A DNA stretch of 64,000 bases from NCBI RefSeq assembly GCF_003150675.1, contig NZ_QGGB01000003.1, positions 1 to 64,000 of the forward strand, read 5' to 3'. This DNA comes from Rhodohalobacter mucosus (GTDB taxonomy: Bacteria > Bacteroidota > Rhodothermia > Balneolales > Balneolaceae). Made by a program: the position numbers and the translations under genes. The notes below the pieces were generated by a model, which was not told where the DNA came from, made no database searches, and saw nothing but the letters and a program-made list of their open reading frames with translations. Shown piece after piece: positions 30,733-38,741 of the stretch (position 1 is its first letter; the number at the start of each line of letters is the position of its first letter).

Positions 30733-31398
30733 ATGGCACAGTCATTAAAAACAAAGATCGTTATCGTGGATGATCACCCGATCATGAGAAAAGGATTGGC
30801 CAGTACCCTGGAGACAGAACCCGGTTATGATGTGGTGAGGCAGTATGAGAAGGCGGAGGAAGTTCTAAGCGAACTCGATGAAGTGAAGCCCGAATTGATT
30901 GTGGTGGACGTATCCCTGCCGGGGATGAATGGGATCGAACTTGTAAAGAATGTGATTTTCCGTAACCCCGACCAGAAAATGCTGATGGTATCGCGCCATG
31001 AAGAGTCGCTATACGCAGAACGTGCACTCCGTGCAGGTGCCAAAGGCTATGTAATGAAATTCGAACCGAGCGATGTACTAATGAAAGCCGTTCGTAAGGT
31101 GCTGAACGGAGGAATTTACGTAAGCGAGGAGATCAGCGAAAAGTTGCTTCTAAATGCAATGTCGGGACGGAAACCGGTGCTGGAGTCACCCGTCGACATA
31201 CTGAGTGATCGTGAACTGGAAGTGTTTGAACTGATCGGACGCGGCAGAAGCAGCAATGAAATAGCTGACCAGCTGCATCTGGCGGTGAAAACCATTGAAA
31301 CATACCGGTCGCGCATCAAGGAGAAAATGTCGTATAAAAATTCAACCGAGCTGGTGTTTAATGCGGTGAAATGGGTTGAAAGCGGGGAGCAGGTGTAG
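30733..31398 (+). CDS. NarL/FixJ-type response regulator
   Basis: 221 residues. Receiver domain with the acidic pair in VIVDDHPIMRKG (D13, D14), phosphoacceptor D59 in LIVVDVSLPGMNG, and the conserved Lys in AGAKGYVMK. A LuxR-type helix-turn-helix fills residues ~150-215 (LSDRELEVFELIGRGRSSNE; HLAVKTIETYRSRIKEKM). It is expected to be phosphorylated by the PAS-PAS kinase encoded immediately upstream and to bind DNA as a dimer. Target genes are not evident; no obvious repeat of a NarL-type heptamer is seen nearby. Confidence 0.93.
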   Translation: MAQSLKTKIVIVDDHPIMRKGLASTLETEPGYDVVRQYEKAEEVLSELDEVKPELIVVDVSLPGMNGIELVKNVIFRNPDQKMLMVSRHEESLYAERALRAGAKGYVMKFEPSDVLMKAVRKVLNGGIYVSEEISEKLLLNAMSGRKPVLESPVDILSDRELEVFELIGRGRSSNEIADQLHLAVKTIETYRSRIKEKMSYKNSTELVFNAVKWVESGEQV

Positions 31399-35207: not shown

Positions 35208-35345
35208 AAAAAAAAGCCCGCCGGCTTTCAAACCGGCGGGCAATCTCTCTTGTTCTCTGTCTGTGTGTTCTCAGTTCTCAATCAAACTAACGATGACACG
35301 GGGTAAGTGTGTCTGTGTGTGTTGTTCTTTGATCATAATACAAAG
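35208..35345 (-). ncRNA. Candidate small RNA A with intrinsic terminator
   Basis: Read on the minus strand: a 5' hairpin GACAC-ACTTACCCC-GTGTC (35295-35313), a linker, a 34-nt stretch beginning ACTGAGAACACACAG (35242-35275) and a terminator GCCCGCCGG/CCGGCGGGC followed by eight T (35208-35241). A sister copy lies at 36162-36296. The 5' end is approximate. No open frame is conserved between the copies. Between 35346 and 35496 only AT-rich probable promoter sequence is seen. Confidence 0.6.
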
Positions 35346-35496
35346 AAAACAGTATTCGGTTCACCGCATGGCCATGTGGTTTGTCAATAATGAAATTTAC
35401 AGATTTAAATAGCGCAAATATTGAATTAATAATTCTTTAAGATTGTTGTGATAGATGAATTGGAGAAATAAATAAATCAAAAACACAGATTCTGAT

Positions 35497-36075
35497 ATGT
35501 CTGCAGAAAAACTAAAAGATTACACAGCCGACTTACTGACGCTCGAGACACACTTGTATAATGCCGTAAATAAACAGCGTACCAGCGACCAGGCCGGCGA
35601 CGCGGATGCGATGGAGCTGCTTAATAGTATCGATCGTATTCTGAGGAGCCAGATTGACGCACTTGAAAACCAGATTGATCGATTGGGCGGCGGCCGAAAA
35701 TCGGATCTCAAAGAGCTGCTTGGTTCTTTCGCGGGTCTTGCAGCAGGATTGATTGACTCCGTGCGTAAAGATCCCGTATCAAAAATGCTCAGAGACGATT
35801 ATACGGCTCTCTCTATGCTGGCTACCGGTTATACTATGCTCCACACACACGCATTGGGCATGGATGATCAGGAACTGGCAGAACTTTCCGTTAACCATCT
35901 CGGTGAAATTACCCCTGTGATAACGGAACTGAGCAGGGTTATTCCAATGGTAGTAGCCCGTGAATCAACGGGTCTTGATAAATCAACCGCGGAAGAGATC
36001 GGGCGCAAAGCAATGGAAGAGACTCAGAAAATGTGGCGCGCCGGACAGATCGATAAAGAGCCGGTTGTGCTGTAA
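35497..36075 (+). CDS. Helical cytosolic protein, possibly ferritin-like (YciE/DUF892-like)
   Basis: 192 residues, almost wholly alpha-helical by composition, no signal peptide. The first ~150 residues could form a four-helix bundle: LKDYTADLLTLETHLYNAVN, MELLNSIDRILRSQIDALEN, LKELLGSFAGLAAGLIDSVR, DYTALSMLATGYTMLHTHAL. The E-T-H-L in helix 1 and a later H-T-H recall ferritin-like DUF892 stress proteins, but full metal-ligand spacing is not convincing. The C-terminal tail ends EEIGRKAMEETQKMWRAGQI. It lies between two small-RNA candidates on the other strand and has its own terminator. Function unknown. Confidence 0.6.
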   Translation: MSAEKLKDYTADLLTLETHLYNAVNKQRTSDQAGDADAMELLNSIDRILRSQIDALENQIDRLGGGRKSDLKELLGSFAGLAAGLIDSVRKDPVSKMLRDDYTALSMLATGYTMLHTHALGMDDQELAELSVNHLGEITPVITELSRVIPMVVARESTGLDKSTAEEIGRKAMEETQKMWRAGQIDKEPVVL

Positions 36076-36117
36076 AACAGTCCCGGCACTGTAAAGTGCT
36101 GACACCGGTTTACGCAG

Positions 36118-36148
36118 AAACCCTTCCTGATTCGGGAAGGGTTTTTTT
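36118..36148 (+). terminator. Rho-independent terminator of the helical protein gene
   Basis: AAACCCTTCC-TGATT-GGGAAGGGTTT stem-loop with a run of seven T, 43 bp after the stop codon at 36075. Confidence 0.85.
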
Positions 36149-36161
36149 ATGCAGAATAGAA

Positions 36162-36296
36162 AATAAAAAGCCCGCCGGCTCTCAAACCGGCGGGCAATCT
36201 CTCTTGTTCTCTGTCTGTGTGTTCTCAGTCTCAATAACCAATCGGCAGGGGGTAAGTCTGCCAGTGGGGTGTTGTGTTGATCTTGAATCAATTTAA
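36162..36296 (-). ncRNA. Candidate small RNA B with intrinsic terminator
   Basis: Read on the minus strand: hairpin GGCAG-ACTTACCCC-CTGCC (36244-36262), then a shorter linker, the same 34-nt stretch beginning ACTGAGAACACACAG (36196-36229), and terminator GCCCGCCGG/CCGGCGGGC with T-tract (36162-36195). The loop is identical to copy A, while two stem pairs change compensatorily. It begins just after the icd terminator on the same strand, so it is probably transcribed from its own promoter. Confidence 0.6.
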
Positions 36297-36339
36297 TCAG
36301 ATTCATAAACCTGCACACTACATACCCATGCGGGATTAC

Positions 36340-38024: not shown

Positions 38025-38741
38025 ATGAAATTTTATCCGGGAGAACTATATCACATCTTTAATCGGGGAAACATCCGACAGAAAGTTTTCTTTGAGAGCA
38101 GGAATTACATCTTTTTTCTTGAAAAGATGAAAACTCACCTGACTCCATATTGCCATATTCTGGCTTGGTGTTTAATGCCAAATCATTTTCATTGGCTGAT
38201 TAAAGTGAAAGATAATCATGAAATTGAACGGAATGATTTATCACATCTTGCTAAATCAGATGATCAAACGAATAATCTTCACAGCAAATGCAGTAATAAG
38301 CAACTTGCAACACATCACACATCTACTAAAGTAATTGCACAGGATGGATTTCAGTTGCTCGATGTCAGTCAATTGAATCAAAACATTGGCATTATGCTGA
38401 GATCCTACACCAGGGCAATTAACAATGCTCAAAAAAGCAAAGGTTCACTTTTTCAACAAGGCACGAAATCCAAAAATGTAAATCCGGGAATCGAATTCAG
38501 AGAGAATTATGCCCTTATCTGCTTTCTGTACATTTTGCAAAATCCTGTCAGGGCCAAGTTATCTGCAGATTTTTCAGGGTGGCCATATTCCGCATATCTT
38601 GATTATTCAGGGCAAAGAAATGGAACTCTCTGTAACAAAGAACTCGCAACTGAGTTGTTTAATCTTCCCACTGACTGGAATGAGTTCAAGGAGTTCGTCA
38701 GTCAATCTTTGCCTGAAAATTTTCAGGATCATATTTTTTGA
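38025..38741 (+). CDS. REP-associated tyrosine transposase (RAYT)
   Basis: 238-residue Y1-HUH protein of the RAYT branch. HUH motif H54-F-H56 in LMPNHFHWLIK, catalytic Tyr Y169 in ICFLYILQNPVRAKL, and the C-terminal SGWPYSAYLDY and LCNKELATELF stretches typical of RAYTs. It begins with the usual YHIFNRGNIRQKVFF. RAYTs are single-copy, domesticated relatives of IS200 transposases that mobilise REP sequences; hairpin REPs on both sides are the probable substrates. It is more AT-rich than flanking genes, which suggests acquisition. Confidence 0.9.
   Translation: MKFYPGELYHIFNRGNIRQKVFFESRNYIFFLEKMKTHLTPYCHILAWCLMPNHFHWLIKVKDNHEIERNDLSHLAKSDDQTNNLHSKCSNKQLATHHTSTKVIAQDGFQLLDVSQLNQNIGIMLRSYTRAINNAQKSKGSLFQQGTKSKNVNPGIEFRENYALICFLYILQNPVRAKLSADFSGWPYSAYLDYSGQRNGTLCNKELATELFNLPTDWNEFKEFVSQSLPENFQDHIF

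Follow-up and report, generated by a model that had tools for sequence, protein, structure and literature searches.

The 64,000-nt window analyzed here, from the genome of Rhodohalobacter mucosus (G000), contained two minus-strand segments that we interpret, with a probability of approximately 0.7, as small RNA (sRNA) genes belonging to a regulon under a single response regulator, the RNAs acting post-transcriptionally on target mRNAs. About ten copies in this bacterium, probably genes for regulatory RNAs, seem to be jointly activated by a single signalling protein. The same predicted promoter design recurred in many genomes of the order (Balneolales; 128 genomes in the order-wide set), and the RNAs matched no catalogued family. 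Established at the level of sequence were the operator, its fixed distance to the -10 box, the terminators, the paralogous copies, and the association of operator and regulator both by position and across genomes. This legible promoter code ties one response regulator to sRNAs in many genomes, so that a pattern search can list the members of the regulon. No sRNA regulon of the order was found in the open-licence literature among the matches listed, and no Rhodohalobacter sRNAs were found in that literature.

The two units were approximately 120 nt long (copy 1, or C3a, 35,208-35,329; copy 2, or C3b, 36,165-36,283; starts inferred from the -10 boxes) and shared an identical 48-nt block, a 9-nt loop (ACTTACCCC), and a terminator. 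The 34-nt stretch and the GCCCGCCGG terminator that the initial annotation had described as common to both lay inside this longer block. Copy 1, read from its predicted start to the end of its T-tract, comprised a 5′ hairpin, GACAC-ACTTACCCC-GTGTC (35,295-35,313, loop 35,300-35,308; from sequence and folding), a purine-rich core, ATTGAGAACTGAGAACACACAGACAGAGAACAAGAGAGATT, conserved on comparison of the copies (35,242-35,282), and an intrinsic terminator, GCCCGCCGG...CCGGCGGGC plus T-tract (35,208-35,241). Upstream were a putative -10 box, TATTAT (35,335-35,340, at offset 39, the usual offset being 38), and, by pattern match, the operator CCACATGGCCATGCGGTG (35,362-35,379), a palindrome of the form CYRCAT-N4-ATGYRGTG. 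The corresponding elements of copy 2, likewise all on the minus strand, were the operator CCGCATGGGTATGTAGTG (36,316-36,333; pattern match), a putative -10 box, TAAATT, at offset 38 (36,290-36,295), the hairpin GGCAG-ACTTACCCC-CTGCC (36,244-36,262, loop 36,249-36,257), and the terminator (36,165-36,195). Against an expectation of 0.16, the loop sequence occurred twice in the window (two were reached in 1 of 100 shuffles), and BLAST with copy 1 recovered copy 2 at 86% identity (E = 5.8e-30); a chance origin of the resemblance is therefore implausible. Both units folded better than shuffled sequences (z = -6.1, 0/200 as good, and z = -4.3, 1/200), with the terminator as the strongest helix in each. 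Terminator-ended minus-strand small RNAs with a C-rich loop, as first proposed, were supported as a prediction. The neighboring genes were also as first described: an icd-like gene (Iso_dh, PF00180; 36,406-37,653, minus strand) lies upstream of copy 2, and a 192-aa ORF (35,497-36,075, plus strand), the helical-protein gene of that description, lies between the two units, has no Pfam match, and is taken here only as a neighbor of the system. Elsewhere in the window, an ORF at 38,025-38,741 presumably resembles REP-associated (RAYT-type) transposases.

What had been called twin RNAs proved to be two among about ten copies in the genome. When 58 relatives were searched at the DNA level, 6 genomes matched, with 7 places in G000, 11 in G024, and 1 in G027; weak matches in G018, G037, and G056 read as terminators or simple repeats. 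In a first whole-RNA alignment (A2) the 5′ domains did not align, and the covariance model (R1, alignment A3, 19 copies) was therefore limited to core and terminator. Searched against the 128 genomes, R1 gave 9 matches in G000 (six at E < 1e-7, and three copies on contig C9 at 0.001-0.0065), 11 in G024, 1 in G027, 1 in G021, and 3 in G001. We counted 23 places, 19 of which had served to train the model; the remaining four were the three C9 copies and G024 C104:22-97. Two almost identical G024 copies, at the ends of contigs C102 and C104, may represent a single place. Two weak matches on G001 C304 (E = 0.002 and 0.0042) had no operator, and single matches in G022, G069, G071, and G082 (E = 0.0015-0.0094) had none within two mismatches; these were not counted, and the G022 match reads as a plain terminator. 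The G001 C304 matches (L131, 1015-1089 and 1691-1772) fell in two long repeats, arranged in tandem ahead of a citrate-synthase-like gene and ending in a core-like plus terminator segment without operator. R1 also found an RNA in G100, outside its training set; in the run giving 11 matches at E up to 1, this RNA scored 0.0012 and the G069 match (L249) 0.023, and there were nine others. Because several of these cover only the terminator part at about equal E, the G069 match proves little. The covariance-model search proposed in the initial annotation did find further copies in Balneolales genomes, with a model of core and terminator.

The terminator itself covaried (93.4% of cells paired, 8/9 pairs changed on both sides, 0/500 shuffles), as is expected of any terminator. 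Rfam 15 had no match at the window segments; ten weak matches (E reaching 5) all fell well short of the gathering scores, so a known Rfam family was rejected, in agreement with the first reading. A coding reading of the core was rejected as well: between the window copies there are indels whose lengths are not multiples of three (GAGAACTGAG vs. GAGACTGAG), and copy lengths vary. A plasmid collection searched with copy 2 gave no match. Five G024 copies stood in tandem between dnaK- and dnaJ-like genes (names from ORF reading), and copies in G000, G024, and G027 preceded an AtuA-family gene (Pfam in G000, ORF likeness elsewhere).

The conserved parts of the family were the core (GAGAACTGAGAACACACA...AGAGA), the terminator, and the operator, the last of which was absent from the initial annotation. 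An exact palindrome preceded 21 of the 23 counted copies, the exceptions being G000 C6c and G024 C102c. G000 contained ten exact operator sites (reversed-pattern control, 0), nine of them before RNAs (one without core) and one before a pilin-like gene. Among 22 sRNA promoters, a TANNNT-type -10 box started at offset 38 in 20 (by base, T38 and A39 in 20/22, T42 in 19, and T43 in 20); the two exceptions, both at offset 39, were window copy 1 and the G024 copy syntenic with it. The spacing was also kept outside the sRNA clade: in regulator-bearing genomes, 28 of 32 perfect operators had TANNNT exactly at offset 38 (same genus, 7/10; other genera, 21/22), and any other offset from 20 to 57 had it in at most 3/32. 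This fixed offset places the operator centre near -42 of the predicted start, which is the usual place of a lux box. The palindrome-plus-box pattern was present in 42 of the 128 genomes (reversed control, 1). Further operators preceded protein genes, among them the regulator gene itself; in G000, no perfect operator lay upstream of the regulator gene. The defining feature of the family is the promoter, not the loop hairpin.

Two operators, at G000 C3:399270-399287 and G024 C232:12247-12290, lay upstream (about 270 and 400 nt, respectively) of pilin-like genes that resemble each other and begin MGQQQLLLVILVTI; a pilin may therefore belong to the regulon. The -10 box of the G000 operator is degenerate. 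In same-genus genomes, the stretches after the operators at L058 3707 (minus strand), L059 7715 (plus strand), and L066 5175 (minus strand) were of a different kind, apparently non-coding and in part self-complementary.

The candidate regulator (G000 C5:405410-406048, outside the window) has a receiver domain (PF00072) and a GerE domain (PF00196; Pfam on the G000 ortholog), i.e., it is of NarL/FixJ type. D58, the expected phospho-site in this family, was invariant in 21/21 aligned orthologs. A regulator match at E ≤ 1e-52, a threshold chosen after the matches had been seen, was present in 56 of 128 genomes, and pattern and regulator occurred together in 38 (odds ratio 36, Fisher P = 3.4e-14; the overlap was counted by hand, and the test ignores relatedness, related genomes not being independent). 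Eighteen of the 56 regulator genomes lacked the exact pattern, and 4 of the 42 pattern genomes had no regulator match at the threshold: G027 (apparent regulator end at a contig edge), G057 (partial match), G083, and G121. Another NarL/FixJ-like response regulator ORF (family by reading), not the sRNA-linked ortholog, lies in the window at 30,733-31,398.

Position told the same association. In G024, G001, G021, G067, G069, and G072, the regulator gene was followed within 25-150 nt by an operator-driven RNA with terminator (RNA-like units at 82-86 nt in the last three). In G000 and G100 the distance was about 0.55-0.6 kb, and G000 had two such RNAs, about 0.6 and 0.85 kb downstream of the gene. 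An RNA-like unit also followed the regulator gene in Fodinibius (G073/L171), with a hairpin seen by eye and no T-run found automatically. At seven f3-family loci, a GC-rich hairpin came after the first operator, accompanied at six of them by four or more consecutive T (by reading); automated end-finding placed the terminator at this hairpin in 4 of 6 tested. The f3-type unit of L055 preceded a small gene and a kinase, and from spacing we infer the same order at the remaining f3-family loci. Many operators sat at a regulator gene whose neighbor encodes a propeller-type histidine kinase, as assigned by Pfam in G001; G039 has a comparable long ORF. Dispersed, non-functional repeats that happen to carry a terminator and a promoter-like palindrome would account for the many near-identical copies, some in tandem, and for a core family confined to few genomes. 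They would not account for an operator-to-box spacing fixed in other genera, a link to one regulator, compensatory terminator changes, or diverse 5′ domains, and we regard this explanation as highly improbable.

On the preferred reading, the regulator would bind the operator centred near -42 and activate transcription as LuxR-type activators do, yielding the predicted RNAs, mostly 93-145 nt long, each with a variable 5′ domain, a purine-rich core, and a terminator. Less surely, the RNAs would act in trans by pairing with chosen mRNAs, the variable loops giving member-specific targets and the core serving a shared target or protein partner, so that the sRNAs would form the post-transcriptional arm of a signalling system. 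The core GAGAACTGAGAACACACA, the AGAGA stretch, and the terminator were common to the copies, with variations. C6b has a hairpin without a T-tract after it, and the T-tract of 102a is weak, its automated end having run to the next terminator. The 5′ domain varied. The ACTTACCCC loop, which had been taken as the invariant signature of the family, was present in both window copies; the three C9 copies had TTACCCC, G024 copies had CTCCCA or ACATCCCA, and remaining copies had TACTTGAG-type or other loops. The two window stems (GACAC/GTGTC and GGCAG/CTGCC) differed, as claimed, in two of five pairs, both compensatory. However, the syntenic G024 copy (L008/L278; C359), whose neighbors are those of copy 1 (by ORF reading, a plug-like lipoprotein gene and NlpC-, pdxJ-, and era-like genes), keeps TTATCCC, has no conserved stem in its sequence, and is predicted by RNAfold to form none. 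By the initial annotation's own standard, such a homologue counts against the compensatory stem; the compensatory changes were rejected as proof of a conserved fold.

The conserved core raises the question of which partner or pairing it serves. The RNAs could be protein-binding decoys: GAGAAC and AGAGA recur in them, probably unpaired, and could sequester an RNA-binding protein in the way that RsmY and RsmZ titrate CsrA, with the loops being incidental; this would be compatible with control by the same regulator. AGAGA was found in 15/15 representative clade RNAs (36 occurrences vs. 12.2 in shuffled sequences, maximum 23), GAGAAC occurred 21 times (vs. 2.0, maximum 7), and AAGAGA was present in 5/7 RNAs of other genera (vs. 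0.7, maximum 3), although these counts, which excluded two f3 RNAs with misplaced ends, are inflated by related copies. In addition, the G100 RNA is only 77 nt long and consists of core and terminator, with no 5′ hairpin. Against titration, GGA was depleted (6 vs. 32.6 shuffled), and no candidate protein was found: Hfq matched in 0/5 genomes, CsrA in 0/6, and RRM_1 in 0/6, with positive controls throughout (for RRM_1, in a Bacteroides; we took RbpB to be an RRM_1 protein). We judge the decoy function unlikely.

Pairing with mRNAs could also be general. C-rich stretches occurred in C3a, C3b, and C9a-c and in the G024 copies 262a-e, 359, and 104a, and such loops might block ribosome-binding sites indiscriminately, like UCCC motifs in Gram-positive sRNAs. 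Shine-Dalgarno-like 4-mers were somewhat commoner at -20 to -4 of the long window ORFs (6/39, start codons unrefined) than in the upstream controls (3/39 at -36 to -20 and 1/39 at -52 to -36), but 6/39 is low and falls below one of the two coding controls (8/39 at +100 to +116; 2/39 at +4 to +20), even if unrefined starts may hide sites. The few 4-mers make specific pairing seem likelier than general anti-Shine-Dalgarno action. Three of 11 further GGGGTAAGT sites (G000 C1:74522, C6:321878, and C7:164233) lay no more than about 45 nt past an apparent start codon; two of these starts are uncertain, and one site is in an EttA-like gene (by reading). Several copies, however, have no C-rich loop, and GGGGTAAGT was rarer in the genome than its reversed control (13 vs. 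35). General blocking is accordingly given little weight. As candidate targets for the ACTTACCCC loop, the three sites amount to a weak lead, and the rarity of GGGGTAAGT also counts against the preferred reading.

A specific antisense match was found at the regulator itself. In G000, the core is antisense to the leader of the regulator mRNA, 18-32 nt before the start codon, which would give negative feedback. The antisense pattern TTCTCAGTTN{0,4}CAA occurred three times in this genome (control, 0): at window copy 1, in the regulator leader (C5:405378-405392), and inside an amine-oxidase-like gene. The leader duplex was significant with C3a (z = -4.2) and C6a (z = -4.0) and not with C3b (-1.4), C5a (-0.9), C5b (-1.7), C6b (-0.3), C9a (-1.1), or C9c (-0.5); in G024, G001, and G021, none of eight pairs was significant. 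The leader complementarity could be a decayed inverted sRNA copy.

Among known systems, the closest design is that of the CiaR-dependent csRNAs, followed by LhrC; none is a membership match. In the GacA-RsmX/Y/Z system, a LuxR-type response regulator drives several sRNAs via a palindrome, and the Rsm RNAs carry GGA motifs for CsrA. The present RNAs are similar in their putative LuxR/GerE-type regulator, whose control over them is suggested by operator and co-occurrence, and differ in the depleted GGA and the 0/6 CsrA result. The streptococcal csRNAs are several related sRNAs driven by CiaR through one regulator site, an appropriately spaced -10 box, and a terminator (PMC3091779, PMC8186281), an arrangement found here save for C6c, C102c, C6b, and, less clearly, 102a. 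Further likenesses are low overall similarity, a short conserved stretch, Hfq not found, and some tandem duplicates (PMC3091779, PMC8186281). However, CiaR is of OmpR type and recognizes the direct repeat TTTAAG-N5-TTTAAG (PMC3091779, PMC8186281), whereas the regulator here is of GerE type and the site is a palindrome. The csRNAs carry sequences complementary to translation initiation regions; here, such complementarity was looked for at the regulator leader, where 2 of the 8 G000 copies showed it. If correct, our reading would add an independent case of a two-component regulator working via several sRNAs, with Hfq not found.

Listeria LhrC1-5 are multicopy 111-114-nt sRNAs under LisRK with C-rich loop motifs (PMC4132741). 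Multicopy sRNAs with C-rich loop motifs also occur here, under one putative regulator, but the LhrC copies are described as almost identical, Hfq-binding, and bearing three UCCC sites each (PMC4132741), whereas TCCC occurred 7 times over 15 RNAs and at most once in each. No LhrC-like match was found for these RNAs in Rfam. Bacteroides FopS and GibS are likewise paralogous multicopy sRNAs of Bacteroidota, FopS being transcribed from canonical sigma-ABfr promoters and bound by RbpB (PMC11697453). This sets FopS apart from the present RNAs, which have operator-type promoters in genomes with 0/6 RRM_1 matches.

The kinase and a small gene that lie between the carboxylase and regulator genes in G001 were absent in G000 and G024. 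The kinase precedes the regulator in G001 and G021, whereas in G024 and G000 the carboxylase gene (Pfam in G000, likeness in G024) is followed by the regulator after about 0.14 and 0.34 kb, respectively, with no kinase gene in the interval. Neither genome yielded a close kinase match, which is weaker evidence in G024 because that genome is 84% complete. A tentative and rather doubtful extension of the preferred reading is that the regulator became an orphan without its lost sensor kinase, while the sRNAs expanded to about ten and fed back on the regulator mRNA, each copy presenting its own targeting loop on a common scaffold. Small proteins encoded before the kinase gene in two loci (L069 1251-1643, with no Pfam match, and L055 7374-7793) share a C-terminal EDIIVI motif.
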